From: Sinomonas sp. P10A9
GTDB lineage: Bacteria; Actinomycetota; Actinomycetes; Actinomycetales; Micrococcaceae
DNA: 64,000 nt
Assembly (NCBI RefSeq): GCF_041022165.1
Contig: NZ_CP163302.1
Location: 2,790,001 to 2,854,000 of the forward strand
Reading direction: 5' to 3'
In this document: one piece after another, positions 44,385-57,815 of the stretch
Layout: each line of letters begins with the position of its first letter
Position numbering within the stretch: the first letter of the stretch is position 1
Notes under the pieces: generated by a model
Told to the model about the DNA's origin: nothing
Databases searched by the model: none
Seen by the model: only the letters and a program-made list of their open reading frames with translations
Made by a program: the position numbers and the translations under genes

Positions 44385-44430
44385 CCGGCCCGCAAGGGAG
44401 ATCGGCGACCCGTCTCCCAAACCCGCCGCA

Positions 44431-44454
44431 TCACACGTTGAAGCGGAACTCCAC
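44431..44454 (-). pseudogene. Displaced native 3' end of ychF
   Basis: On the minus strand this reads V-E-F-R-F-N-V-stop, the canonical C-terminus of YchF GTPases. It is now about 12.3 kb from the rest of the gene (56703-57815). Bases 44440-44451 are the recombination core; bases 44431-44439 (N-V-stop) are the true displaced end. It has no start codon and is not expressed on its own. Confidence 0.85.
44440..44451. other. attL core
   Basis: Core GAAGCGGAACTC. To its left is chromosome (native ychF stop region), to its right the element (starting CACCAAGGCC). The integrase gene begins 47 bp inside. Identical to the attR core. Confidence 0.85.
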
Positions 44455-44484
44455 CAAGGCCCACCGCAGAGCAACTTCTGGGCG

Positions 44485-44490
44485 TATCCT
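44485..44490 (+). promoter_or_regulatory. -10 box of integrase gene, leaderless type
   Basis: TATCCT, then 7 nt, then the ATG at 44498. It lies inside the element, so the integrase keeps its promoter after integration and excision. Confidence 0.5.
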
Positions 44491-44497
44491 TCGTTCC

Positions 44498-45853
44498 ATG
44501 ACTCCCGCCCGCGCCGCCGTATACCTTCGCCAGTCCCTCGACACCACGGGCGAGGGCCTAGCCGTGAGTCGCCAGAGGGAGGACTGCCGCGCGCTGGCGG
44601 CGGCTCGCGGCTGGACCGTGGTCGAGGAGTACCTCGACAACTCCATATCCGCCTCCGACCGGCGCAAGGTTCGCCCCGGCTACGACCGCATGATCGCGGA
44701 CTTTGAGGCTGGCCGATTCCAGGCGATTGTGTGCTGGGACCTCGACCGCCTGACCCGCCAGCCGCGCCAGCTGGAGGACTGGATCGACCGCGCCGAGAGG
44801 CAGGCGCTGCTCCTAGCGACAGCGAACGGCGAGGCCGACCTCACGACCGACGGCGGCAGGATGTACGCACGAATCAAGGCAGCCGTCGCCCGAGCGGAGG
44901 TCGAGCGCAAGTCCGAGCGCCAGCGCCGCGCCGCGCTTCAGCGCTCAGAGAAGGGACGTCCGCCGCTTGGAGTACGGCTGACCGGCTACACGCCGAACGG
45001 CGATCTGGTGCCCGCTGAGGCCGCGTTCGTGGCCACGCTGTTTGAGCGCTTTGCCGAGGGGGACTCCCTCCGCTCCCTCACGGCGTGGGCTGCTGGGCGG
45101 GGCATCCCCACGCGGCGGGGAGCGCCATGGAACCCCTCAACCATCCGCACGCTGCTGATGAACCCGCGCTACGCTGGCCGCGCCATCTATCAGGGCCGCG
45201 AGACCGGCAGGCCCGGTGCCTGGACCCCGATCGTGGATGATGACCTCTACACGATCGTCCAGGCGCGGCTCACGGACCCGCGCCGCCTCACCCATCAGGG
45301 CACGGACAGGAAGCACCTAGGCTCCGGGCTCTACCTATGCGCCGTATGTGGCGAGCCGCTGTCCTCGTGGTCCGGCGAGCGCTATCGCTGCGCGGCGGGG
45401 CACCTCACGCGGGCCCAGAAGCCCATCGACGCCCTCGTCCTCGAGGTCACCCGCGCATGGCTACGTGATGGTGACAACGTCCGCATGCTCGCGACGCGGC
45501 TGGCGGAGCCCCGGGAGGAGGACCGCACCGCCGCCGAGCAGGTACGCGTGCTCCGGCAGCGACTCGCGCGCATCGATGAGGACTACGACGCGGGGCTCAT
45601 CGACGGCCACCGCCGCAGGGTCGCCGCCGACCGGGCGCAGGCCGAGCTAGCGACCGCCGAGGCCGCGCTCCAGCGCGCTGCCGCGCCCGCCGCTGCCGTG
45701 CTCCACGCGGCGGACCCGGTGGCCTACTTCGAGGGATCCAGCCTCATGATCCGGCGCGCCGTGCTGTCCATGCTGTTCACCGTCCGCGTGAGTCCAGCGC
45801 CGCGCGGCCGCAAGGGCTTCGACCCCGAGACGGTCAGCTTCGAGTGGAACTGA
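44498..45853 (+). CDS. Large serine recombinase (phage-type integrase)
   Basis: 451-residue serine integrase. The N-terminal resolvase domain starts AAVYLRQSLDTTGEG with the catalytic Ser in YLRQS, followed by SRQREDC and IVCWDLDRLTR. The recombinase domain (about 150-260) contains GYTPNGDLVP and NPRYAGRAIY. A zinc ribbon follows (CAVCGEPLSSW ... RCAAGH), then a coiled-coil segment (VRVLRQRLARIDEDYDAGLI). It catalyses attP x attB recombination; the sites are deduced at ychF. Slightly short for the class but with all domains. Confidence 0.93.
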   Translation: MTPARAAVYLRQSLDTTGEGLAVSRQREDCRALAAARGWTVVEEYLDNSISASDRRKVRPGYDRMIADFEAGRFQAIVCWDLDRLTRQPRQLEDWIDRAERQALLLATANGEADLTTDGGRMYARIKAAVARAEVERKSERQRRAALQRSEKGRPPLGVRLTGYTPNGDLVPAEAAFVATLFERFAEGDSLRSLTAWAAGRGIPTRRGAPWNPSTIRTLLMNPRYAGRAIYQGRETGRPGAWTPIVDDDLYTIVQARLTDPRRLTHQGTDRKHLGSGLYLCAVCGEPLSSWSGERYRCAAGHLTRAQKPIDALVLEVTRAWLRDGDNVRMLATRLAEPREEDRTAAEQVRVLRQRLARIDEDYDAGLIDGHRRRVAADRAQAELATAEAALQRAAAPAAAVLHAADPVAYFEGSSLMIRRAVLSMLFTVRVSPAPRGRKGFDPETVSFEWN

Positions 45854-45862
45854 GCCAGTAGT

Positions 45863-45930
45863 CCTAGTGACTAGGCGAAGCGGAGCTGTACCCGTATAAC
45901 AGCCTATGTAGGAAGTCCTATATCCTACAT
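45863..45930. promoter_or_regulatory. Palindromic operators between integrase and C2H2 gene
   Basis: CCTAGTGACTAGG (45863-45875) is a perfect 6-1-6 palindrome. ATGTAGGA (45906-45913) and TCCTACAT (45923-45930) form a perfect 8-9-8 inverted repeat. The 105-bp spacer is AT-richer than its surroundings and has TATAAC at 45895-45900. Likely regulator or directionality-factor binding sites. Confidence 0.5.
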
Positions 45931-45959
45931 GATCCGCTCCCGAAAGCTGGCTCCCGAAA

Positions 45960-46319
45960 ATGCTCACTGTTGTAACCATCACTGCTGTTGACCCGAAGTC
46001 CGGTAAGACCCAGCGCGCCGCTGGCGTGCGACGCGGCGACGCGTACTCCAGGCTCCTCACCATCGCCGGAGAGGCCACCGCCGAGGAGTTCCTAAAGGTG
46101 GTCCGCGAGGACCCTGACCGCCTCATGCCCTGGATGTCGAAGGACGGCGCCACCGTCGTTGTGTTCAGCGAGAGGGACGACAGCCTCATCTCGTGGGAGC
46201 CGAAGCGGCGGACCAGCCAGAAGCGCGTGAAGTGCGTCGTGTGCGGCAAGGTCTCGAACGCGAGCGGCATGGCGCTCCACCAGAAGAACGCCGGTCACGA
46301 GGGAACCGAGGCCGCGTAG
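45960..46319 (+). CDS. C2H2-type zinc-finger protein, integrase neighbour
   Basis: 119-residue protein. The N-terminal 85 residues have no recognised fold. The C-terminus carries CVVCGKVSNASGMALHQKN, completing a C-x2-C-x11-H-x5-H zinc finger close to the eukaryotic C2H2 spacing. A basic patch (KRRTSQKRVK) precedes it, so DNA binding is plausible. It follows the integrase by 106 bp across two palindromes. Possible repressor or recombination directionality factor; this is inference. Confidence 0.65.
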   Translation: MLTVVTITAVDPKSGKTQRAAGVRRGDAYSRLLTIAGEATAEEFLKVVREDPDRLMPWMSKDGATVVVFSERDDSLISWEPKRRTSQKRVKCVVCGKVSNASGMALHQKNAGHEGTEAA

Positions 46320-46322
46320 TGC

Positions 46323-46601
46323 GTGCCGGCCATGCCCCGCGTGCGTGAGGCAGCACGAGTCACTGTCGCGTCCGCTGCGCTGCCGCGCTACCGGCGCGCG
46401 CCCTCACGGCAGCAGCGCGCGGCGGCGGTCCTCGAGCAGCTCGTTCTGATGGTGGACCCCCGTGTCCTCCGTGAGGCAAGGCGGCTCGCTCGCGGTGACC
46501 TGTCGGTGATCGTGCTCAACCTGGACGGCTCCGTAACCGTGGCCAACTCGACGGCCCACCGGCTCATCATCCTGGAGCGCCGACGCAGGCCCGAAGGATA
46601 G
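46323..46601 (+). CDS. Small basic unknown protein
   Basis: 92 residues from a GTG 3 bp after the preceding stop (an ATG at 46332 is the alternative). The N-terminal half is strongly basic (LPRYRRAPSRQQRAAAVLEQ). The second half looks folded (RGDLSVIVLNLDGSVTVANS, then HRLIILERRRR). No family recognised. It ends 7 bp before a strong terminator, so integrase-region genes end here. Confidence 0.55.
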   Translation: MPAMPRVREAARVTVASAALPRYRRAPSRQQRAAAVLEQLVLMVDPRVLREARRLARGDLSVIVLNLDGSVTVANSTAHRLIILERRRRPEG

Positions 46602-46608
46602 ACCGGCT

Positions 46609-46637
46609 GATGCCCCCGTCGCGGTGACGGGGGCATC
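46609..46637 (+). terminator. Terminator of the integrase module
   Basis: A perfect 12-bp stem (46609-46620 and 46626-46637, 5-nt loop) just after the basic-protein gene. Confidence 0.75.
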
Positions 46638-47140
46638 ATCGGCGCGAGACGGGCATCTGCGCCCGGTTTCGGACCGCCCCGCTACACCTGCGCGATGAAG
46701 GGCCAGCGGGACTCCCGGACGCCGCTGGCCCTTCCGGCCCGGGGAGGAGAAACCCAAAAATCGACTCACCCGGGACGCATGCAATTCTGGCGGTTTGGTG
46801 CCACGCGCGCTACTGGGCAGCCCCCGACCGGACCCCGAAGGATGGCGCTAGCGCGGGGGTGACGACGGCCCTATGCTTGGGGGGTGGTCCCGGGCTTCGG
46901 CTGGGGACGGCGGAGAACCCATAAGTAAATGGAGGCCGTTTCTTGGGAATCGGAGCCTCCCCCTCTCAATCCGAATTCTCTGGTGCTGCCTCCCCACGGC
47001 GACTGATCGACCTACGCTGCGGGACTTGGTAACGCAACCCGGCCATCGATCGAGGAACCCCCGCATGGGGGTAGGACCCGTTGATGGCGAGGCGATAGCC
47101 TCCCCCAAGATAGAGGGCTGGTCTTGAGAGTGAGACAGCC
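46638..47140. other. Gene-free structured control region of the element
   Basis: About 500 bp with no convincing gene, upstream of the replication operon. It holds several inverted repeats: 12-bp arms at 46698-46709 and 46722-46733; ACCCCC-GCAT-GGGGGT at 47057-47072; GAGGC-GATA-GCCTC at 47089-47102. A near-repeat of GGCTG/CAGCC type sits at 47115-47140, directly before the next ATG. No good SD precedes that ATG, so the last hairpin may control its translation. Probably carries the operon promoter and regulator sites. Confidence 0.5.
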
Positions 47141-47383
47141 ATGTCTTGGTCCAAGGATGCCGAAGTTCGTGCGAACGTCAGCCGTATCGCCAACGCCTAC
47201 CAGATGGACGATGTCGATGAGGACGTTCTAGAGCTCCAGCGACGGCTGCGCGTGAAGGTGGTCAAGCGAGCGATCATCAAGGACGCGAAGCACATCCCCC
47301 CGTTCAGGGCGGCGCACTATGAGCTTCTCATCGCGTTCCTGCGGGAGTGCATCGAGAACCTCAACGAGGAGGAAGCCAAGTGA
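47141..47383 (+). CDS. Small acidic helical protein, start of replication operon
   Basis: 80 residues, mostly helical and charged (MDDVDEDVLELQRRLRVKVV, ending ECIENLNEEEAK). No family recognised. Its last codon overlaps the next start as GTGA (47380-47383). First gene of a chain of overlapping genes leading to the primase/helicase. Confidence 0.6.
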   Translation: MSWSKDAEVRANVSRIANAYQMDDVDEDVLELQRRLRVKVVKRAIIKDAKHIPPFRAAHYELLIAFLRECIENLNEEEAK

Positions 47384-47526
47384 GCGGGCAGCCCGACGCG
47401 GCTGCTGCGCGGCTCCAGGAGTACATAGCGCGTGTGGTCGCGGAGGCCCCTCCGCTGGACCCGGCGCGCGCTGATCGCATTGCCGCATTGCTGCGGTCCT
47501 CGGAGGAGAGGAGCGCAGCGGCATGA
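47380..47526 (+). CDS. Very small protein, 48 aa, coupled on both sides
   Basis: Starts GTG (overlapping the upstream TGA) and ends in ATGA with the next gene, so both ends show translational coupling. Product helical: LQEYIARVVAEAPPLDPARA then RIAALLRSSEERS. No family recognised. The double overlap is the main evidence that it is real. Confidence 0.55.
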   Translation: MSGQPDAAAARLQEYIARVVAEAPPLDPARADRIAALLRSSEERSAAA

Positions 47527-47951
47527 GCCGGAAGAAGAAGAGAGACCGGGGCGCTGAAACCCCGGTCCCCACGAAGAAGAAATTCCCTACCACCGAGAAG
47601 GCTCCCTCATGGGAGATTCTAGCGGTAGTCGAGAAGCCGAGCTATGGACGCTGCCCCGACTGCGCGGGCCGGTGGAATGGCACCGCGCTGGAGCACAATT
47701 CGACCTGCCCGCTGATGGCGGCAGAGAACCACGCTGTCGATCTGGACCGGCAGTTCTTCGAGGACCACCCGCAAGCGGACTACTTCTACCGTCCGATGGT
47801 CCACGCCGAGGTGGTGACGCTACGTGCGTCGGGCCAGATCGGGCCGGATGAGGAGTTCCTAAAGGGCCTCGTCCGCGTCGAGCAGATCGCTCCGGGCATC
47901 CGCACACGCCTCTCGCTGTTCAAGGTGGCACGCGGCGATGGCGGTGAGTAG
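47523..47951 (+). CDS. Zinc-ribbon-like unknown protein of the replication operon
   Basis: 142 residues. Basic N-terminus (MSRKKKRDRG), then a putative Zn site with CPDC and a later HNSTCPL, reminiscent of small zinc ribbons in phage replication regions. A charged C-terminal half follows (FFEDHPQADYFYRPMVHAEV). Overlaps the primase/helicase start by 14 nt, so the products are probably made together and may interact. Confidence 0.6.
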   Translation: MSRKKKRDRGAETPVPTKKKFPTTEKAPSWEILAVVEKPSYGRCPDCAGRWNGTALEHNSTCPLMAAENHAVDLDRQFFEDHPQADYFYRPMVHAEVVTLRASGQIGPDEEFLKGLVRVEQIAPGIRTRLSLFKVARGDGGE

Positions 47952-49899
47952 GGACAGCCGCCTCACGGTGTCGTTCTTCAGGAGCAGAGCGGACGCTGCG
48001 CCAAAGGAGAAGCGGGTCGCGTGGACGGACTTCTGCGCCCTGATGGCCGAGGACCAGCTCCGTGTGTCTCCGGGCCTTCGTAAGGACGCCCGGGGCGGGT
48101 TCACGATGTGCACGTTCAAGAACGGCCATCGCGGCAAGGCGGACGTGGACCGCTGCTACGGTATCGCCCTCGATCTGGAGGCGGACGAGGAGACCGGCGA
48201 GATAATGCCGCCGTCGCTTGAGGTGCTGGGGCGCATCCACGCGCTCGGACTACAGGCGCTCGTCTACTCGACCTATTCCCACACGCCGGAGAGGCCGCGC
48301 TACCGCGCGCTGCTGCCGGCGGACGGCCCAGCGGACGCCGGCACGACGAGCCGCGCCGCGCGGGCGGTGCTCGAAAGGCTCGGTCTGCCGTTCGACAAGG
48401 CGTCGCTGCATCCAGAGCAGATGATGTTCATGCCCACGGTCCCAAGCGAGGAGGCAAGAGAGGACTATGAGCTGGAGATCATCGACGGACCGCGCGTCAG
48501 CCTGGATGAGTGGGCGGCGCTAGCCCCCCGTGAGGAGCCCGCCGCGTCGGCTCCGGCGCAGGACCCGTTCGACGTGTTCCTGGAGCGCTGCGAGGAGCAG
48601 GGGCGGGGGGTCGTCCACCGGGGGCCGGATGACGCGATGGTCCAGTGCCCCACGCACAACGACAGGAACCCCTCCCTCCACGTCCAGCGCAGTTCGATGG
48701 CCACCGTGGTGATGCACTGCTTCGCTCCCGCCTGCGCGGGCCTCACGGCACCACAGTTCTTCGAGGCAGTGGGTCTCCGCTGGAGCGAGGTGGTGCACGG
48801 CGAGACAGCGGCGAAGGACTTCGGTGAGGAGCAGGAGGCGGACGAGCTAGGAGGGGCGGCTGTCACGGGCAGCTATGACTGGACGCACCGCTTCATCGAC
48901 GGCGGCTCATTTATCTTCGACGTTCCCGACGAGGTCCCGGCTCTCTGGGGCGAGCGCGGGGACGTCATCTGGCCAGAGGGAGAGGCCCTCATGGTGTGCG
49001 GCCCCTCCGGCGTCGGGAAGACAACCCTGATCGGGCAGGTAGTCCGGGCCATGCTGTTCGGCGGGGACGTGCTGGGCCACGCCGTGAGGGTGCTGGCTCC
49101 AGGGGAGAAGATCCTCTATCTGGCCATGGACCGGCCCTCCCAGATCCAGCGCTCGCTCAAGCGCCAGTTCCACGGATACGACCGGGCGAGGGTGGAGCAG
49201 TCGCTCCTCGTCTGGAAGGGGCCACCGCCTGAGGATCTCGCGCAGTCGCCAGAGAAGCTGCTCGCCATGTGTCGCTGGGCCGGGGCGGGAACGGTCATCG
49301 TGGACAGCCTGAAGGATGCGGCCATCGGCCTCTCGGAGGATGCCGTCGCGGCGGGATGGAACCGCGCACGCCAGATGGCGATTGCGGAGGGGGTCCAGGT
49401 ATGCGAGCTCCACCATCAGGTCAAGCGCGGACCCAACGGGGCAGCACCGACGACCCTCGCAGACGTGTACGGCTCGACGTGGCTCACGGGCGGTGCTGGC
49501 TCGGTGATTCTCCTCTACGGCAAGGCGGGAGATCCGATCGTGCGGCTGCTCCACCTGAAGCAGTCCCAGAACGACGTCGGACCGCTGGATATATTCCACG
49601 ACCAGGACTCCGGAGAGATCAGCGTCTGGTCCGGAGAGATAGACCCGCTGGCGCTCGCGCGGAACGCCGGTAGGGACGGCATCACGAAGAGGCGGCTGGC
49701 CGAGATCATGTTCGCACGGGACCGCCCCACCGACGCCGAGATTGCGAAGGCAGGCCGAAGGCTGCACCAGTGCGTTCGTCGGGGTGAGCTAGTGATCCGT
49801 GATGGGTCAGCGGAAGCGACGCTCGGCACCCAGTCGAAGGTCTACGTCCTTCCCGAGTACCTCGACTTCGCGGACGACGAGGGGGGTACGGAAACGTGA
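47938..49899 (+). CDS. Primase/helicase fusion: AEP-like domain, CHC2-type zinc finger, RecA-like ATPase
   Basis: 653-residue replication protein. Residues about 20-180 resemble plasmid/phage archaeo-eukaryotic primase-like domains: IALDLEAD supplies acidic residues and YSTYSHTPERPRYRALLP is a hallmark string. At about 235-275, CPTHNDRNPSLHV ... HCFAPACAG looks like a DnaG-type CHC2 zinc finger. From about 345, GPSGVGKTT is Walker A of a RecA/AAA_25 ATPase, with TVIVDSLKDAAIG as Walker B. A C-terminal winged-helix-like tail follows. Probable initiator, primase and helicase of the element. Confidence 0.8.
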   Translation: MAVSRDSRLTVSFFRSRADAAPKEKRVAWTDFCALMAEDQLRVSPGLRKDARGGFTMCTFKNGHRGKADVDRCYGIALDLEADEETGEIMPPSLEVLGRIHALGLQALVYSTYSHTPERPRYRALLPADGPADAGTTSRAARAVLERLGLPFDKASLHPEQMMFMPTVPSEEAREDYELEIIDGPRVSLDEWAALAPREEPAASAPAQDPFDVFLERCEEQGRGVVHRGPDDAMVQCPTHNDRNPSLHVQRSSMATVVMHCFAPACAGLTAPQFFEAVGLRWSEVVHGETAAKDFGEEQEADELGGAAVTGSYDWTHRFIDGGSFIFDVPDEVPALWGERGDVIWPEGEALMVCGPSGVGKTTLIGQVVRAMLFGGDVLGHAVRVLAPGEKILYLAMDRPSQIQRSLKRQFHGYDRARVEQSLLVWKGPPPEDLAQSPEKLLAMCRWAGAGTVIVDSLKDAAIGLSEDAVAAGWNRARQMAIAEGVQVCELHHQVKRGPNGAAPTTLADVYGSTWLTGGAGSVILLYGKAGDPIVRLLHLKQSQNDVGPLDIFHDQDSGEISVWSGEIDPLALARNAGRDGITKRRLAEIMFARDRPTDAEIAKAGRRLHQCVRRGELVIRDGSAEATLGTQSKVYVLPEYLDFADDEGGTET

Positions 49900-49904
49900 T
49901 TAAG

Positions 49905-50017
49905 CCTTACGGGGGGGTTACGCACCCCTTTTGCCTACGTCCTACGCAAGCCCTTACGGATCCCCGGAATCAAGCCTTACGCAGCCCCTTACGGCCCTTA
50001 CGCCCGGCTACCTTACG
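49905..50017. repeat. CCTTACG iteron-like cluster, candidate replication origin
   Basis: Six exact CCTTACG copies at 49905, 49952, 49975, 49987, 49996 and 50011, plus CCTACG at 49934 and 49941 and TTACG at 49918, all in the same orientation within 113 bp. A C6/G6 inverted repeat follows at 50022-50040. It starts 5 bp after the primase/helicase stop. Iterated words beside an initiator gene are typical of plasmid and phage origins. Confidence 0.65.
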
Positions 50018-50124
50018 CTCGCCCCCCTCCCTAAGGGGGGCGAACGCGTAACCCCCCCCCTCACGAGAGAGGAATCCCATCACTGCCTTGGGCAGCTGAA
50101 CACCGAGAAGAAGGAGACGCAGTC

Positions 50125-50661
50125 ATGACCACCACCACCACGCCAGCTGTTCCCGTAGCCCTCACGCGGAAGGCGCTCGACGCCACCATCCGGGACCTCG
50201 GCGGGAAGTACGTCCGCTCCTCTCAGGGATGGCACTACTGGCACATCCCGACTCCGGTCGCGCCGATTGAGGTCGGTGCGCTCATCCGCCAGAGGGTCAC
50301 GCACATCGGAGTGGACCGGGTGTACTTCCCGGGCGCACTCACCGCCGCAGGCAATCGGCCATGGGCCGAGCCCGAGGCCTACGCGACCCTGCTCCCGTAC
50401 CTCGACCGCGCTGTTGCTGCTGGCGCGAGCGCTATGACGATCCCGGGGTGCACTGGTCCCTACTCAGAGTGCGCCGTCGTGAACGGGGAGCTGGACGAGC
50501 TGCTCCGCCGCTGGATCGCGATGGAGCGTCGCTGGATCGCGAATCCGGGTCAGAACGAGAACGAGGGCGACGGGGCCTCCCCCTCGTGGCAATGCGGCAT
50601 CTGCGGCGAGCTGCGCCATCTCAACGACGGCCACCGCCACCCACGCCAGAAGGCCTCATGA
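50125..50661 (+). CDS. Unknown protein with C-terminal zinc-binding motif
   Basis: 178 residues, no family recognised. N-terminal region has a WHYWHIPTPVAPIEVGALI segment. The C-terminus CGICGELRHLNDGHRHPR looks like C-x2-C paired with two His, a probable zinc site. A strong SD (AAGGAG) precedes the ATG by 9 nt. First gene after the candidate origin and the start of a new transcription block. Confidence 0.65.
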   Translation: MTTTTTPAVPVALTRKALDATIRDLGGKYVRSSQGWHYWHIPTPVAPIEVGALIRQRVTHIGVDRVYFPGALTAAGNRPWAEPEAYATLLPYLDRAVAAGASAMTIPGCTGPYSECAVVNGELDELLRRWIAMERRWIANPGQNENEGDGASPSWQCGICGELRHLNDGHRHPRQKAS

Positions 50662-50768
50662 GCGCCTGCGTCGTTGCGGCATATACGCCGTACCCCGTAC
50701 CCCGTATCGCAGCGCGAAGGTTGCCGACTGGAAGGCTGCCCACTATGACTGCCTTCCAGCAGCACTAG
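50658..50768 (+). CDS. Possible 36-aa peptide
   Basis: ATG overlaps the preceding stop as ATGA; product MSACVVAAYTPYPVPRIAAR then a basic tail. The DNA contains a short repeated GTACCCC word. No SD of its own. Evidence is only the overlap. Confidence 0.25.
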   Translation: MSACVVAAYTPYPVPRIAARRLPTGRLPTMTAFQQH

Positions 50769-50783
50769 GAAGGGAGCAGGGCC

Positions 50784-50906
50784 ATGGCAAAGCAGCGCCA
50801 CGACATCGGGGTGATGAAGCGCATGCGCGCGAAGGCGGAGTCCGTCCGCCGACACGAGGTGGCACACCGTGTCGCGAGGAAGGCGGCACGCCGTGCCCCA
50901 CGATGA
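50784..50906 (+). CDS. Small, very basic 40-aa protein
   Basis: Starts MAKQRHDIGVMKRMRAKAES, with 16 Arg/Lys in 40 residues. AGGAAGGGAG lies 7-16 nt upstream. It could bind nucleic acid. The stop overlaps the next gene's start region by 14 nt. No family recognised. Confidence 0.5.
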   Translation: MAKQRHDIGVMKRMRAKAESVRRHEVAHRVARKAARRAPR

Positions 50907-51150
50907 CGGCAAGGGGACGCTCCTGATCCGGGCCATCGATGCCCACCTCACGAGGACGTGGGAGTTCGGCGCCATCACCCGTGCGTCGAGCACGCTACGC
51001 GTGACCCGTGCTCGGATCATGCTGCCGAAGGGCGACGGCTTCGTTGACGGGATCGCCGTGAGGGCCAGCGGGCGCGACCGGCTCGTGCTGACGCAGGAGG
51101 GCGCGGCTGCCCTGTTCGAGCAGCTTCAACGGCTACTCAGCCGCCGCTAA
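50893..51150 (+). CDS. Unknown 85-aa protein
   Basis: GTG start inside the end of the preceding gene. Product includes GTLLIRAIDAHLTRTWEFGA and LVLTQEGAAALFEQLQRLL, a small alpha/beta-looking protein. No family recognised. Followed by about 140 bp without a gene (51151-51291). Confidence 0.55.
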   Translation: MPHDDGKGTLLIRAIDAHLTRTWEFGAITRASSTLRVTRARIMLPKGDGFVDGIAVRASGRDRLVLTQEGAAALFEQLQRLLSRR

Positions 51151-51291
51151 GCCGAATCACCCGCCAGACGGCGCGAGACGGCACGAGAGCCCCGGCTCGG
51201 CACAGCTGGGGGGCAACCGTAGCCGAACGCGGGTAGACGCCGGCAGACGGGCGAGGGCAACGGGCAACCGGGATCCAGTGGTGAGGCGAAC

Positions 51292-51657
51292 ATGAGAACA
51301 GCTGATCTCGGCGGTACGCCTGCGCCTCTCGCGGCCGAACACGGTAGTCCGGCGGCAACTACCCGTCCCCGCCCTGTCGCGGCCGAACACGCCTACCCGG
51401 TGAGCTCCTGGGGGGCCTATGTGCCCCCGGTTCCGAGGCCTTACGGCGACGTCGTTGACACACATGCTGACATTCACCGAGTCGCGCCCATCCCGCCGAC
51501 CAGGAGGGCTGATCCGCCCCGTCTCGCCCACCCTCACGGGGGTCCATCCTCGATGCCGGGTTGGCACGACAGAGGAGTTCCCGAGAAGCCCGGACCTGAA
51601 GAAGAGGAGCGCTATCATAGATTCTGTCGGATGTCAAGAGGATATTCGCGGAAATGA
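51292..51657 (+). CDS. Pro-rich unknown protein with internal repeat
   Basis: 121 residues, low complexity, rich in Pro, Ala and Arg. Two copies of AAEH in a repeated context come from a 15-bp direct repeat TCGCGGCCGAACACG at 51329 and 51377. Charged C-terminus (PEEEERYHRFCRMSRGYSRK). The stop overlaps the next ATG (ATGA at 51654-51657), the main support for translation. No SD. Confidence 0.45.
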   Translation: MRTADLGGTPAPLAAEHGSPAATTRPRPVAAEHAYPVSSWGAYVPPVPRPYGDVVDTHADIHRVAPIPPTRRADPPRLAHPHGGPSSMPGWHDRGVPEKPGPEEEERYHRFCRMSRGYSRK

Positions 51658-52160
51658 AGAAAGGGCTCCCGGCCATGACTACACACCCCATCCACACACT
51701 GGAGACGCTTCGCAGCGCGCTCGCTCTCTGCGAGCATCTGGACGGCCCACCCGCCCGCGCAGCACATCTTCGCGCCGAGATCCAGAGAGCGGAGGTCTTC
51801 GAGGACTGGATCGGGACCCTTGCCGCACCCGTCAGGAGCGCCACCCGCGCCCTCGGCGCCGCGCGTGAGCGCCTCTTCACGGCAGCCCTTGAGGGCTCAC
51901 CTGACATCGATCCCTCACGGGATGAGGTCCGGGAGGCAGAGCGCGAGCTCCGCCTCACCGCGAGAGACGCGGGCCTTCCGCAGATCCAGATCCGGAGGCT
52001 TCTCGAGTACGGAGAGGTCACCGACGCGGACATCCGCCAGACTGTCCAGGAGGAGAAGGAAGACCGCGCGATGGCGAAGAGTGGCTTCGAGAGGCTCTAC
52101 GACATCCGTGACGGCCAGCCGGTGACGTTCTTCCGTCCCGTGGGGGGCTCCCGATCATGA
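51654..52160 (+). CDS. Unknown helical protein, 168 aa
   Basis: Almost all-helical, charged protein (HTLETLRSALALCEHLDG ... EVREAERELRLTARDAGLP). The ATG at 51654 overlaps the previous stop; an ATG at 51675 with AAAGGG upstream is the alternative. The stop overlaps the next ATG (52157-52160). No family recognised. The DAGLP-x-x-QIRRLLEYGEV-like segment resembles a small helix-turn-helix but is unproven. Confidence 0.6.
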   Translation: MKKGLPAMTTHPIHTLETLRSALALCEHLDGPPARAAHLRAEIQRAEVFEDWIGTLAAPVRSATRALGAARERLFTAALEGSPDIDPSRDEVREAERELRLTARDAGLPQIQIRRLLEYGEVTDADIRQTVQEEKEDRAMAKSGFERLYDIRDGQPVTFFRPVGGSRS

Positions 52161-52681
52161 ACCAGAGAACAGCTATCGAGATCCCCCTCGCGGAGCTCCG
52201 CAAAGCGCGGCTGACGGTCCACTTCGCGACGATGATCGCATCCTTCGGAGATCCGCCGCCACCGGAGATCTCCGAGAACTTCGAGGCCACGCGGACGCGC
52301 CTCCCATCCCTGGAGCGGGCCTTCCGGTCCGCCGCGAGGCAGGCTGGCCTCTCGCGCCGTGAGATCAGCGACCTGATTGACAGCGACGGCTACTCGGAGA
52401 GGGACGCTCTCGTGGACGGCGAGATCCTGCGTGCCGTCGTCGAGGCTGGCATCGAGAAGGAGCATCGGGAGCTGCTGGGGGAAGAGCCCAATGACGATGA
52501 CCTCAATGATCTGATCTCGCAGATAGGTCTCATCGAAGCCGCCGAGAGCACGCGCCCTCGCTCGGCGCTCGCCCGCGCCGCAGACGTGGTGGTAGTGGCG
52601 GTGCAGGCGACGTGGTGGATTATCACGGACAAGATCCGAGAGTGGAGGAGCGGTCATGGCCGAGCGCCGTCCGCCCACTGA
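52157..52681 (+). CDS. Unknown protein related in layout to the preceding one
   Basis: 174 residues. RSAARQAGLSRREISDLIDS parallels RLTARDAGLPQIQIRRLLEY of the preceding protein, and both have a charged helix after it (E-rich). This suggests two diverged copies. The C-terminal VVVVAVQATWWIITDKI could be a membrane-associated helix. The ATG overlaps the previous stop as ATGA. Confidence 0.6.
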   Translation: MNQRTAIEIPLAELRKARLTVHFATMIASFGDPPPPEISENFEATRTRLPSLERAFRSAARQAGLSRREISDLIDSDGYSERDALVDGEILRAVVEAGIEKEHRELLGEEPNDDDLNDLISQIGLIEAAESTRPRSALARAADVVVVAVQATWWIITDKIREWRSGHGRAPSAH

Positions 52682-52874
52682 GGCCGAGCGGGCGCGGGCG
52701 CGCCTTGGCGTTGCCTGCCGCACCGGCAACGCAGCCGCCCAGACGGAGGCGCGGCGCGATCTCGCCGCCCTCAAGATCGAGGCATTCATCGCCCGGACGC
52801 TCGCCGGTGCCCCACCCATCACGGCACAGCAGCGGGAGCGAATATTCCGCGCAGTGCTCGACTCAACAACCTAG
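52656..52874 (+). CDS. Small unknown helical protein, 72 aa
   Basis: Overlaps the preceding gene by 26 nt; GGAG lies 6-9 nt before the ATG. Ala/Arg-rich helices (EAERARARLGVACRTGNAAA). No family recognised. The next gene starts 11 bp on, behind a clear SD. Confidence 0.55.
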   Translation: MAERRPPTEAERARARLGVACRTGNAAAQTEARRDLAALKIEAFIARTLAGAPPITAQQRERIFRAVLDSTT

Positions 52875-52885
52875 AAGGAGACCCG

Positions 52886-53914
52886 ATGACGCGCACCCAG
52901 ATCTACGACGAGGCCTACTCCAGAATCCCCGGCTACGACGCCGCCACACGCGACACGGCCACCGCATCCGCCTGGATGACCGAGCTGTCCGCGCCGCCGT
53001 CCGCGCTCCAGGTGGACACCGCCGCAGAGCTGCGCGCCGCCGCCGACGCGGGGAAGCCATTCCCGCGTGACCTGCCCGCCCGGGTTCGCGAGGCGCAGGC
53101 AGCCGCGACGGACCATTTCACGGCCCTCACGATGGTCCGGGAATTCGCCGCCGACGCGAAGGCGCGGCAGCAGGCCGCTCTAGCGTCCGGTGCGGACCAC
53201 GGGCTGGCCTACCTACGCGGGGAGCTGGAGTCGCTCGTCACAGAGGTACGCGGGGCCGCGCGGTCGCTCCGGTCGCTGCCCACCGACCCGCTCGACGTCG
53301 CAACCGACCCGACCGCGGATCGCCGCCTCCGTGAGGCAGCCGATCTAGTCGAGCGGTACAGCGCCATCCGCGACGTGCAGCGGACACTCATCCGCACCGC
53401 GAGCAGCAGCACCCGCGCCACCGACAACGGCACGCGGATGTACCTCACGGCGGGGCAGGTTGCCGACTTCCTGGACGCGGACCAGTACTGGATCCAGCGC
53501 CGCCGCGACAACGGGCGCTGGCCCTCCGACCTCCGCACGCTCTCCCCCGAGCAGGAGGCGCTCCGTGAGTGGCTGACGCGGTCGGTCACCCCGATGATCG
53601 ACGGAGAGGAGTGGCGCGCGTCCCTTCCGTCCGGCACCCTCGCCGAGAAGGCAGAAGCCCTCGCCCGCATCTGCACACACGCCCACCCGTGGATGCCGTC
53701 GATGGACGACCTCGCGAATGCCTTCTGGACCGCTGGCGATGCCACCGAGGGCAACGCCAGTTCTCCGCTCGCCGCCGAGGGCGGCATCAGGGCAGTGCAC
53801 CGGGTCGCCGCGATCACCGGCCACACGAGCGAGGGCGCGCCGCCAGAGCCGGTGTCAGCCGTGAGGGGCGGCACCCGCCACGCCGTCCCGTTCACCCAGC
53901 GTCGCAGCAGCTAG
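52886..53914 (+). CDS. Unknown 342-aa protein, largest of the small-gene operon
   Basis: SD AAGGAG 6 nt before the ATG. Long helical N-terminal half (AQAAATDHFTALTMVREFAA ...), then a possible recognition module MYLTAGQVADFLDADQYWIQ, and a C-terminal half with Trp-rich loops. Flexible Thr/Arg-rich end. Not recognised as capsid, portal, scaffold or terminase. A structural or replication-accessory role cannot be told from sequence. Confidence 0.6.
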   Translation: MTRTQIYDEAYSRIPGYDAATRDTATASAWMTELSAPPSALQVDTAAELRAAADAGKPFPRDLPARVREAQAAATDHFTALTMVREFAADAKARQQAALASGADHGLAYLRGELESLVTEVRGAARSLRSLPTDPLDVATDPTADRRLREAADLVERYSAIRDVQRTLIRTASSSTRATDNGTRMYLTAGQVADFLDADQYWIQRRRDNGRWPSDLRTLSPEQEALREWLTRSVTPMIDGEEWRASLPSGTLAEKAEALARICTHAHPWMPSMDDLANAFWTAGDATEGNASSPLAAEGGIRAVHRVAAITGHTSEGAPPEPVSAVRGGTRHAVPFTQRRSS

Positions 53915-53929
53915 AGAAGGAGCACCACC

Positions 53930-54178
53930 ATGGAAGACAAGGCAACACTCGCCGCCGCAGCGGGCCGCGCTGCCGCGTGGGCCACCACCGCACAGGGCAC
54001 CCTGGACACGGCAAGGGCGAACCTGCGCTCGACGCTACGCGCCGCCTGGATCGCCGGGACGACGCCGACTCAGGCAACCGTGGACACGCAGGCCGACGCC
54101 GTCAACCGCGCCGAGGCCGAGCTGTACGCCGCGAACGCGCTCGTCAGCGAGCTGTCCCAGTCGGTGAACTACGCATGA
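53930..54178 (+). CDS. Small Ala-rich helical protein, 82 aa
   Basis: SD AGAAGGAG ends 9 nt upstream of the ATG. Two long Ala-rich helices (AAAGRAAAWATTAQGTLDTA; DAVNRAEAELYAANALVSEL), a probable coiled coil. The stop overlaps the next ATG (ATGA at 54175-54178). No family recognised. Confidence 0.55.
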   Translation: MEDKATLAAAAGRAAAWATTAQGTLDTARANLRSTLRAAWIAGTTPTQATVDTQADAVNRAEAELYAANALVSELSQSVNYA

Positions 54179-54360
54179 GCATCGAGGAGGGCCGCGCACT
54201 GTGGGAACGGCTCCACGGCCACGCCGAGGAGGAGCAGCACGACGCGGATGAGGGCGAGCAGCTCACAGGCATCGAGGCTGGGCGGGCGATGTACGCCGAG
54301 CTGCACCCGCGACGCGACTCTGGGAGTGCGACAGACGGCGTAGGGGTGGGGCATCTGTAG
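54175..54360 (+). CDS. 61-aa protein with a duplicated motif
   Basis: Contains two copies of the motif I-E-x-G-R-A-x-[WY]-x-x-L-H: IEEGRALWERLH at residues 3-14 and IEAGRAMYAELH near residue 34, joined by an acidic linker. The tail is disordered. ATGA overlap with the preceding gene. Two short identical helices could bind two copies of one partner. No family recognised. Last gene of the plus-strand operon. Confidence 0.55.
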   Translation: MSIEEGRALWERLHGHAEEEQHDADEGEQLTGIEAGRAMYAELHPRRDSGSATDGVGVGHL

Positions 54361-54472
54361 CGCTGGGGGCCTTCCCGGGTACAACCCCCTATGGGCGACC
54401 CATGCGCGCTTCCAGGCCCGACCGACGCGCGCCTAGCGGATGAGAGCGCGGGGACAGACCGTCGCGTAGGTC

Positions 54473-55204
54473 CTATCGATCGCGCGCCCTCAGGTATCCC
54501 TCTGCCCAGTCGTCTCGCTTCTCCTCCTCAGTCCGGTCGTCCTCGTCGTCGTCGTAGTAGTCCGTCCATTCGTCCTCCTCCGCCTCGCGGTGGATCCTAT
54601 CGATCTCGTCGTGGACGGACTCCTCGTCCCAGAAGACGCGCTCACGGAGGCGTTCTGGCACCGCCTCAAGACACGCGTCCAGCTCCTCTGCGGCTGTTAC
54701 CCCGATCAGGAGATGGACGAGCGCCACGTAGGCGCTGCGGAAGCCATAGCCGTGGCGGTCACCCTTCGAGAGCCAGTGGGCCAGCTCGTGCAGCACCACT
54801 GTCCTGTCCAGGTGCGGGCCGAAGTGCAGCGTGTCATCCTTCGGATCGTGCCAGGCAGCTGCCTGGTGATCACCGGGCACATCGAAGTAGACCTTCGGCG
54901 GCGGCTCCGGCAGATCGTGCCGCGCGATGACGGGGCCGAACATCTCCATCAGGACTTTTCCGGCACCATGCGCGATCAGATCGGCGACTATGAGTACATA
55001 GCTGAGTGTGTCCTCGATGAACGCCTCGACGTCCTCCGCGACGAGGTCATCGCTGTAGTCGTCGGGAAGGGTGCGCGCCTTGCACCACGCGGACTCGGCG
55101 AGATACGTGACCCAGGTGGTGTCCAGTGGAGGCGTTACCCAGACGGGCTTGACGTGGGTGGGCAGGACATGGTCGAGGGCTGTCTCCAGCGACGGGCTGA
55201 GCAT
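54473..55204 (-). CDS. HEXXH metallohydrolase-like protein
   Basis: 243 residues. The zincin motif is in VVLHELAHWLSKGDRHGYGF, giving HELAH followed by H-G after seven residues, similar to the actinobacterial TIGR04338 metallohydrolases. The N-terminal half is helical and the C-terminus very acidic (EEDEWTDYYDDDEDDRTEEE). It is convergent with the small-gene operon and has its own upstream region. On an element such genes can be cargo affecting host or competing phages, but no activity is established. Confidence 0.7.
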   Translation of the reverse strand: MLSPSLETALDHVLPTHVKPVWVTPPLDTTWVTYLAESAWCKARTLPDDYSDDLVAEDVEAFIEDTLSYVLIVADLIAHGAGKVLMEMFGPVIARHDLPEPPPKVYFDVPGDHQAAAWHDPKDDTLHFGPHLDRTVVLHELAHWLSKGDRHGYGFRSAYVALVHLLIGVTAAEELDACLEAVPERLRERVFWDEESVHDEIDRIHREAEEDEWTDYYDDDEDDRTEEEKRDDWAEGYLRARDR

Positions 55205-55438
55205 CAGATACGCACCTTCTGGGTCGAGCTAGTCCAGTGCGGGTCGGGATGCCGGCTCGTCCGGAGCGGGGTCATCTTCGGCCCGTGTGTCTCATGGTAG
55301 GACTAGCGCGTCTGACGAGGCTGCCTTTCCGCTAACTGGCCAGCAGTGAGAGCGGATTGCGCAGGTCGGCACCTAGGACAGCGCAGACTGACCAGTTGAG
55401 CGCGATTCGAGCCAGCAGAATGTCGGCCAGATTGGAGT

Positions 55439-55459
55439 CGTAACAATCCGTAACAATCC
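55439..55459. repeat. Tandem CGTAACAATCC repeat
   Basis: CGTAACAATC occurs twice in tandem immediately after the stop of the minus-strand membrane-anchored gene. Also in this gap, GCTAGTCC (55228-55235) and GGACTAGC (55300-55307) form an 8-bp inverted repeat upstream of the metallohydrolase gene. Confidence 0.5.
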
Positions 55460-55460
55460 C

Positions 55461-56108
55461 TCATCCGTGAGGCGGCTCCGCGTCCTTGAGACGATCCCGC
55501 CAGATGGTCGATAGGCGTGCCTTTGTGGCCCCCACTGACTTCTGGAGGAAGCTGCTCCGGGGTAGGGTCCCGAGTTCCTGCCTCATCTCCACAACGACCT
55601 CGGCGATCAGCCCGGCTGCGGACTGGCCGACGCTTGACTCAACGTAATCCGCTACGACCCTTCCGATCTCGTCGGCTCCCGCTGAGGGGTTCGCATTGAA
55701 GAGCAGGCTGAAGTGCTGAGCCAGATGCGCTATCGAATCCAGGTAGGCGCTTTCGCGCGCGTGGAGTGCGTCCATTAGCTTGGGCGAAGCGAGTAGCTGG
55801 GTCCGAAGGAACACCTTGTCCACAGACGTGAGGCGCGAGATAGGCCTGCCCGCGATCTTGTTTGCGATGTCCTGGGCCATCCCCTCTATCTCGGGCCTGA
55901 TCCGGGCTAGATAGTCGGTGTAGGCCTCGTAGCGTGCCTCAAGCTCCCACTTACTGCGCTCACGACGTCCGGTGAGCCTATGCCTGATGTAGCCACTGAT
56001 GAGCGTCAGGACCGCACCTCCGACGGCGCTAATGATGACCGTCCAGAAGGGGTCTGGTGTGCTTGCAGTGGCAGCGACAGCCGCCGCAACGGAGGGACTG
56101 GGAGTCAT
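55461..56108 (-). CDS. Membrane-anchored unknown protein, 215 aa
   Basis: One N-terminal membrane helix (FWTVIISAVGGAVLTLISGY, residues about 21-40) and a cytosolic helical domain starting RHRLTGRRERSKWELEARYE. This one-helix plus coiled helical body layout is frequent in phage-exclusion and other accessory proteins, but no family was recognised. Minus strand, like the metallohydrolase; possibly constitutive cargo of the integrated element. Confidence 0.6.
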   Translation of the reverse strand: MTPSPSVAAAVAATASTPDPFWTVIISAVGGAVLTLISGYIRHRLTGRRERSKWELEARYEAYTDYLARIRPEIEGMAQDIANKIAGRPISRLTSVDKVFLRTQLLASPKLMDALHARESAYLDSIAHLAQHFSLLFNANPSAGADEIGRVVADYVESSVGQSAAGLIAEVVVEMRQELGTLPRSSFLQKSVGATKARLSTIWRDRLKDAEPPHG

Positions 56109-56255
56109 GCGTCCAACCTATACAACCGACCCCCGAGCCGTCGGGATCCGAGCGTGCTCGATTCGCTGACGCGCTCCACCGTGTGTCGCGCCATCTAGAT
56201 CCCCCTCACGGTGCTCTACGGTTGGGGTACATCCGACACAAGGGGGGACGGGGCC

Positions 56256-56609
56256 GTGGGCTTCATCGACAACACGCCGAAAGACGGAACGACCAACACG
56301 CAGGAAGTTGCCATTGCGCTCGACAGGGCAGGCTTCGGTAGCGCCAGCCCGATCCAGGTATTCGCGGCTGGGCACGGCTGGGACAACTACCGCATCGAGC
56401 TGCACGATCGGCCCGAATCCGTAAACATGCGCTACCACTTCGAGGCGTGGCACGTCGATGATCCATCGGACCGAATCGTCGGTGAGGGCGCGGCTGACAT
56501 CCAGTCGGCCGCAGGGCAGCTGGATCGCAAGAAGCTGAAGAAGCGACCGTCCCCTGATGCGCCCGCCGAGCCTCAGGCACCTACCAGCTGGCCCATCGTC
56601 ACCCCGTAG
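56256..56609 (+). CDS. Unknown 117-aa protein at right end of element
   Basis: Begins VGFIDNTPKDGTTNTQEVAI; the middle has an IQVFAAGHGWDNYRIELHDR segment and beta strands (VNMRYHFEAWHVDD), and the C-terminal 30 residues are Lys/Pro-rich. The GTG at 56256 follows AAGGGGGG with 8-nt spacing; an in-frame GTG at 56211 lacks an SD. No family recognised. Divergent from the membrane-anchored gene; ends before the terminator near attR. Confidence 0.5.
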   Translation: MGFIDNTPKDGTTNTQEVAIALDRAGFGSASPIQVFAAGHGWDNYRIELHDRPESVNMRYHFEAWHVDDPSDRIVGEGAADIQSAAGQLDRKKLKKRPSPDAPAEPQAPTSWPIVTP

Positions 56610-56625
56610 CCCCTCCTCCGGCGCT

Positions 56626-56649
56626 GTGCCCCCTCACGTGAGGGGGCAC
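56626..56649. terminator. Palindromic terminator near attR
   Basis: A perfect 24-bp palindrome (12-bp arms without loop, starting GTGCCCCCTCAC), between the last element gene and ychF. It lies inside the element, so it now terminates the modified ychF transcript as well. Confidence 0.65.
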
Positions 56650-56702
56650 TCCCGGTTGGCCCGTAAGGGATGCTGCCGGGCTCAGATGCCCGTCTAGCGG
56701 GC

Positions 56703-57815
56703 CTACTTCTTAGGCTGCGCTGAGGTTACTTGGAAGCGGAACTCTACCACGTCGCCGTCGGCCATGACGTAGTCCTTGCCCTCGATCCGAACCTTGCCGC
56801 GGGACTTGGCCTCGGCCATCGAGCCTGCATCGACGAGGTCCTCGAAGTGGACCACCTCGGCCTTGATGAAGCCGCGCTGGAAGTCCGTGTGGATCACCCC
56901 GGCCGCCATCGGCGCCGTGTCACCTCGGTGGATGGTCCACGCGCGGGTCTCCTTGGGGCCGGCGGTGAGGTAGGTCTGGAGCCCGAGAGTATGGAAGCCG
57001 ACGCGCGCGAGCTGGTCGAGGCCCGACTCGTCCTGGCCGTTCATCTCGAGCATCTCGCGGGCCTCCTCCTCGGACAGCTCCACGAGGTCGGACTCGAGCT
57101 TCGCGTCAAGGAAGATCGCGTCCGCGGGCGCCACGAGAGCGCGGAGCTCCTCCTGCTTCTCGGGGCTCGTGAGGATGCCCTCGTCCGCGTTGAAGACGTA
57201 GATGAACGGCTTCGCGGTGAGGAGGTTGAGCTCCTTGAGGTGCTCCATGTCGAGCTTGTCCGAAGCGATGGACGAGAAGATCGTGTCGCCACGCTCGAGG
57301 ACCTTCTGGGCGGCCTCGATCGCGGCGAGCTCGGCGGCGTCGCGCTTCTTGATCTTGACTTCCTTCTCGACGCGCGGAAGGGCCTTCTCGATCGTCTGGA
57401 GGTCGGCGAGGATGAGTTCGGTGTTGATGGTCTCCATGTCGGAGCGTGGGTCGACCTTGCCGTCCACGTGCACCACGTCCGGATCGTCGAAGACTCGGAT
57501 GACCTGCGCGATGGCCTGGGCCTCGCGGATGTTGGCGAGGAACTGGTTGCCCAGGCCCTCGCCCTCGGAGGCGCCCTTGACGATGCCTGCGATGTCGACG
57601 AAGGAGACGGTCGCGGGGAGGATCCTCGCGCTGCCGAAGATCTCCGCGAGCTTGTCCAGGCGCGGGTCCGGGAGGCTCACCACACCGACGTTCGGCTCGA
57701 TCGTCGCGAACGGATAGTTCGCCGCGAGGACCTGGTTGCGGGTCAGTGCGTTGAAGAGCGTCGACTTGCCGACGTTGGGGAGACCGACGATTCCGATAGT
57801 GAGAGCCACGGTCAT
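56703..57815 (-). CDS. ychF: Ribosome-binding GTPase YchF with element-encoded C-terminus
   Basis: 370-residue Obg-family P-loop NTPase that binds ribosomes and hydrolyses ATP/GTP. G1 is [15 protein letters not shown]3 [10 protein letters not shown], and the TGS domain ends [19 protein letters not shown]. Canonical YchF ends there with N-V; here the last nine residues are QVTSAQPKK, encoded by the inserted element after the 12-bp core. The native N-V-stop is found at 44431-44439. The core enzyme is intact, so function is probably retained. Confidence 0.95.
56733..56744. other. attR core
   Basis: Core GAAGCGGAACTC, encoding E-F-R-F of ychF on the minus strand. To its right is chromosome, to its left the element. 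Identical to attL. Confidence 0.85.

Follow-up and report, generated by a model that had tools for sequence, protein, structure and literature searches.

Large serine recombinases that insert into the 3' region of a conserved housekeeping gene have been described for the SCC/ECC elements at rlmH, which also have dyad-symmetric att sites, highly variable cargo and remnants at the site, as outlined in the excerpts of PMC6222049 drawn on here. The element that we report from Sinomonas resembles them in these respects, but SCC/ECC have CcrA/CcrB and rlmH, whereas the Sinomonas element combines a single integrase, ychF as the target, an Actinomycetota host and a replacement tail encoded by its attP. 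We rejected membership of SCC/ECC, as the NCBIfam Ccr models scored far under their cut-off (60 vs 900 bits for CcrB) and the target is ychF. The target-gene groups of Durrant et al. (PMC10083194) are similar in bringing diverse integrases together at one conserved protein-coding target per group; YchF is not named in the main text of that paper. Pneumococcal prophages likewise insert beside ychF, but, going by the portions of PMC8637289 and PMC10383233 cited here, they lie upstream of the gene, use a 26-bp attB and belong to another phylum, while the Sinomonas element occupies the ychF 3' end. The Brevibacterium island BreLI (PMC5719810, in the part relied on) shares with our element an actinobacterial host, a position at the 3' end of a protein gene and a 12-bp repeat, and differs in its target, the ribonucleotide reductase beta-subunit gene, and in being a probable ICE of about 96 kb. 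The cheese islands RUSTI and BreLI were considered as precedents for ychF targeting and set aside, since ychF is not their target in those same source portions. We found no report of a serine integrase targeting ychF in our PMC searches, which covered few subscription papers and supplements.

We analysed a window of 64,000 nucleotides of Sinomonas sp. P10A9 (contig NZ_CP163302.1, positions 2,790,001 to 2,854,000). We are highly confident that it contains a site-specific integrative element, and that the large serine integrase moving it belongs to a clade that recognises the final codons of ychF. This is the best explanation of the sequence evidence, which comprises the anatomy of the element, empty and alternatively occupied sites, a clade-wide target, symmetric attP sites and a recurrent tail. 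The features are collected in Table 1.

Table 1. Features of the ychF-integrated element and related sites. Positions are those of the window unless a locus is named; limits at the crossover are the most likely ones.
Feature	Position	Strand	Basis or remarks
Whole integrated element	44453..56747		12,293 bp between the crossover dinucleotides; based on empty and differently occupied sites and dyad centre
attL region	44427..44480		Displaced native ychF end 44431-44451 (minus strand, EFRFNV-stop), AC 44453-44454, P arm to about 44480
Large serine integrase, 451 aa	44498-45853	+	Resolvase and Recombinase domains (Pfam 3.3e-28, 3.8e-18); phrog_95 2.4e-88
119-aa protein adjoining integrase	45960..46319	+	43% identical gene directly after the integrase in the R1AF57 element
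Small ORFs of 92, 80 and 142 aa	46323..47951	+	80 and 142 aa: no family match when scanned
Primase/helicase-like replication protein, 653 aa	47938..49899	+	AAA_25 1.5e-13; phrog_6012 7.2e-101; primase phrog_9765 6.7e-15
ORFs of 178, 93, 168, 174 and 72 aa	50125..52874	+	No family assignment (178, 168 and 174 aa scanned)
342-aa and 82-aa proteins	52886..54178	+	R1AF57 element has relatives (53%, 86%), oppositely oriented
243-aa protein, HELAH motif	54473..55204	-	TIGR04338 metallohydrolase matched below threshold (27.2 vs 90 bits)
215-aa (minus) and 132-aa (plus) proteins	55461..56609		No family assignment
attR region	56720..56773		P' arm of element, crossover AC 56746-56747, ychF body
ychF with exchanged C-terminus	56703..57815	-	370 aa; PF06071 3.6e-37; PDB 1jal 4.5e-114
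Element-supplied ychF 3' end	56703..56745	-	From the wobble base of the preceding Val codon onward; compare viral attP L211
Viral attP sites	L220:9956, L221:9962, L211:3856, L214:8505, L218:9952, L228:9930		Both arms together

The 12-bp repeat that the first-pass annotation had placed at both ends of the element, GAAGCGGAACTC, was present at positions 44440-44451 and 56733-56744, with no third copy within the window. This is far beyond chance, as 0.01 copies were expected on average and two copies were obtained in 0 of 100 shuffles. Three copies exist in the whole 4.29-Mb genome, and the third (C1:1118190) has no ychF ending within the surrounding 120 bases. At the left junction the minus strand reads VEFRFNV-stop and the ychF body is absent, as had been proposed. 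At the right junction the repeat copy lies inside ychF, whose product matches the Pfam YchF models PF06071 and PF01926, and the reading frame then continues with QVTSAQPKK-stop; the altered ending had thus been read correctly, but its label as non-family sequence does not hold, as this type of tail recurs and is element-encoded. ARAGORN detected no tRNA at positions 40000-61000, which led us to reject a tRNA as the integration target, in agreement with the earlier choice of ychF. The GC content of the element was 67.3%, vs 67.7% in the remaining window.

An empty site was found in a congener (G104), in which ychF ends in EFRFNV-stop with xfp directly beside it, and which is collinear with both flanks in the window, for 9.3 kb (xfp side) and 2.4 kb (ychF side). 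A genome of the same species (G240, taken as Sinomonas sp. ASV486) has the same flanks with a different element between them; its left side is 96.8% identical to the window over 10.9 kb, the last 1 kb of which is inside the element, its integrase is 67% identical to that of the window and its tail reads EFRHNTTSPQKK-stop. A third element (G135) has an integrase 75% identical and the tail EFRHNTTSGGKAK-stop. The empty site, the alternative occupant and the integrase domains bear out the proposed serine-integrase element within the 3' end of ychF. Among the 15 genus genomes read, EFRFNV-stop was kept in 9, and another ending was present in 6 (the window, G240, G135, G197, G186 and G162), the last of which has EFRFAV-stop plus, in our reading, a tail-like sequence in another frame. 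From 38 relatives we fetched 30 ychF loci, and 7 of these had altered tails. In G186 the extended tail lies on a contig without a PF07508 match, and we counted this site as occupied because two displaced ychF ends lie downstream. The first-pass annotation had named the same extended tail in element-free relatives as the observation that would speak against it, and none was found among the relatives read. It had also predicted the order xfp - small gene - intact ychF in close relatives, which was not seen: the G104 alignment ends before the small gene, the sole same-species genome found is occupied, and our search returned no unoccupied genome of the species.

The integrase scan recovered 75 loci from named genomes and 18 from viral contigs, and the tree comprised 101 integrases, after rows of <430 or >560 aa and duplicates were dropped. 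The 45 rows to which a ychF junction had been assigned at first all fell into one clade of 62 members (SH-aLRT 98), which includes the window integrase. Based on three junction tests applied to all 101 rows, a ychF-type site was found in 54 of the 62 members inside the clade vs 0 of the 39 rows outside it, 20 of which had <6 kb of DNA examined, where a distant junction could be missed. The later-found sites were those of L174, L179 and L185 and of the viral L211, L214, L218, L220, L221 and L228. Eight of the 62 clade members had no ychF-type site in the DNA examined; three of them begin at a contig end (L148, L150, L213) and five do not (L152, L154, L166, L178, L217), and a change of target is possible for L152, L154 and L217. 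In 22 of 91 loci (93 fetched), the integrase match is preceded by a ychF ending with at most one mismatch, the start of which is 46-80 bp away. In clade members of the window type the displaced ychF end is directly upstream of the integrase. Twenty-six integrases, mostly of 510-551 aa, form a well-supported group, in which any ychF that was seen is upstream and oriented towards the integrase gene, from adjoining it to about 9 kb away. The hosts of the clade include Micrococcaceae, Nocardiaceae, Pseudonocardiaceae, Mycobacteriaceae, Corynebacteriaceae, Propionibacteriaceae, Jiangellaceae and others. Near-identical integrases occur in Microbacterium gubbeenense, a Janibacter MAG, Brevibacterium linens and Glutamicibacter creatinolyticus (L171, L178, L180 and L185, respectively), which suggests recent spread between families. 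No phage or plasmid relatives of the integrase were found at >=60%.

We found 39 altered tails, of which 34 distinct ones were used for the codon analysis (L027, L047 and L084 left out). The length of these 34, counted from the Val, is 10-15 codons; 33 have K/R as the last residue and 26 end in KK. Once the three loci are restored, the distinct tails number 37, with K/R last in 34 and KK in 26, and those of L027 and L047 have another end. The element of Nocardia araoensis (L149) has EFRFNV-stop at both ends; therefore, the tail is not changed by every element. The codon patterns indicate that selection on the YchF protein tail is likely: in the 34 tails, the T/P/A and S codons have invariant second positions and variable third positions, and third positions are more variable than second ones in these and in the R and G codons. 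A possible but less favoured explanation is that the conserved basic tail is a by-product of integrase-DNA binding at the P' arm, with no selection on YchF. The T-S codons do fall inside the symmetric integrase motif AACCTCT, 19.5-25.5 bp off the centre in our reading of the consensus, which amounts to a DNA constraint, and the last two tail codons have no clear third-position excess (0.32 vs 0.26-0.27); however, KK-stop lies outside the symmetric arm and at varying distance, and the recurrent K/R end and the third-position variation of the other codons also argue against a by-product. The C-terminus of the YchF of PDB 1jal is likewise FRFNV. The AlphaFold model of the modified YchF, from an alignment of 22 rows, was too weak to support a conclusion: its mean pLDDT was 68.8, with the last strand (residues 355-359) kept and residues 361-370 below 50.

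The integrase is the first gene of the element, and both its domains scored above cut-off (PF00239, 99 bits; PF07508, 66.1 bits), as expected for a serine integrase. The adjoining 119-aa protein is, from its position, a candidate recombination directionality factor; a protein database search returned only the protein itself and missed the R1AF57 copy. Apart from the integrase, the only confident match in the Pfam and PHROGs scans was the primase/helicase-like protein, in which a CHC2 zinc finger matched below cut-off only. We detected no conjugation or translocase genes, which mark ICE/AICE, with Pfam on 9 of the 16 element ORFs (including all >174 aa), and no virion structural genes with PHROGs, which does not cover unknown satellites, on 10 of the 16. 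PADLOC on 10 window ORFs recovered just two matches near E = 0.004. The absence of recognised transfer genes among the scanned ORFs and the low P/P' symmetry in the window would fit an inert relic that has lost its mobility, but this is unlikely, as the integrase frame is open across 451 aa, both att sites are present and the site holds different elements in genomes of the same species, so that turnover is recent.

The 12-bp repeat itself had initially been taken as the core, a claim that we revise: the crossover is most likely at the neighbouring GT (AC on the plus strand; Table 1), adjoining and not inside the repeat, and therefore the copy within ychF at attR would be element-borne. The P arms of 24 attL mirror the P' arms of 37 attR only if centred on this GT, with a score of 0.194 at shift 0 and at most 0.048 at 16 other shifts. 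Six viral contigs have the two attP arms joined close to the integrase, and the symmetry about the GT extends to 14 to 20 of 26 positions; among the 207 sites matching the anchor GTNGARTTYCG in all loci, >=14 of 26 positions were symmetric in 6, which are the same six viral attP. These attP encode an in-frame YchF-like tail, in some cases a very short one (VEFRHR-stop), and the P' arm of L211 is nearly identical to that of the window. The clade thus has the dyad-symmetric attP and the short core shared by attB and attP that characterise large serine integrases, though the deduced attP of the window alone is poorly symmetric (14 of 26). A crossover inside the repeat, which is perfect at both ends, with the EFRF codons of ychF at attR chromosomal, is highly improbable given that the base between GT and the repeat at attR differs (GTA in the window vs GTC in ASV486) despite 99.77% identity of the adjoining flank over 2,548 bp, that R1AF57 has only GAGTTCCG of the repeat in common, that the viral attP L211, with both arms together, has an identical GAGTTCCGCTTC, and that the dyad axis falls on the GT.

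With the crossover at the GT, the deduced attP is P arm - GT - P' arm, and the deduced attB is the ychF sequence ...GAC-GTG-GT/G-GAG-TTC-CGC-TTC-AAC-GTN-stop (slash, point of exchange). The integrase would exchange the strands of attP and attB at the GT of the Val codon preceding EFRF; the ychF body would be joined to the P' arm, forming attR, and the original EFRFNV end would stay about 45-65 bp upstream of the integrase, in attL. Read in phase with ychF, the P' arm is open; it restores V-E-F-R and appends a short, usually basic-ended tail, so that YchF would be rewritten and not truncated. The integrase of the window presumably catalyses this reaction, excision of the element may involve a directionality factor, for which the 119-aa protein is a candidate, and the primase/helicase may replicate the excised form. 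The modified YchF is predicted to be functional.

Outside the window, the EFRFNV-stop sequence was present in at least one copy in 373 of 395 family genomes, in at least two copies in 134 and in at least five in 13, and the reversed control pattern counted zero in any listed row. The 21 array loci read in the family of the window (L116-L135 and L080) consist of tandem small cargo units bounded by copies of the ychF 3' end, often with synonymous codons of EFRFNV-stop and with 23 to 12,316 bp between successive copies. The consensus of 46 inner-boundary arms mirrors the P' arm of the clade (0.243 at shift 0 vs at most 0.024). The cargo includes DrmD/TmtA-like, GmrSD-like and KAP/PifA-like genes, a molybdopterin oxidoreductase and a P-ATPase that we read as copper-type (Pfam: E1-E2 ATPase), and several scanned proteins were matchless. 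A single-gene unit of 1166-1168 bp (203-224 aa by the start chosen) was observed in six arrays (L117, L118, L120, L121, L129 and L135), in five of them as the first unit after ychF.

A large serine recombinase driving the arrays in cis was rejected, as tblastn with the window integrase found none in L116-L135 or L080. PF07508 was present in 19 of 40 genomes, and in 16 of the 36 having at least two ychF ends; among the matches listed, none was within or adjoining an array where the array coordinates are known, and the nearest was 37 kb away in G197 (one ychF end). Tyrosine recombinases (PF00589) were present in 20 of 20 genomes, with no listed match inside the array stretches read. A trio of neighbouring tyrosine recombinase genes is present three times in one genome (G223; C1:1411128-1413486, 2403289-2405647 and 2412525-2414883).

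Finally, and tentatively, the ychF 3' end may be an actinomycete-wide docking site of one integrase clade, with a selected basic tail overwriting the YchF C-terminus, and the integron-like arrays of Micrococcaceae (integrase-less cassettes, some with defence genes, each with a synonymous ychF ending) may have arisen from the same half-site and be mobilised in trans by the clade. The analysis predicts one attP/attB pair for an entire integrase clade that targets a conserved gene, which is of use in actinomycete genome engineering. It also presents a testable case of an attachment site that doubles as coding sequence for a ribosome-binding GTPase of the host, and it makes the ychF 3' end an anchor for locating cargo islands and cassette arrays.
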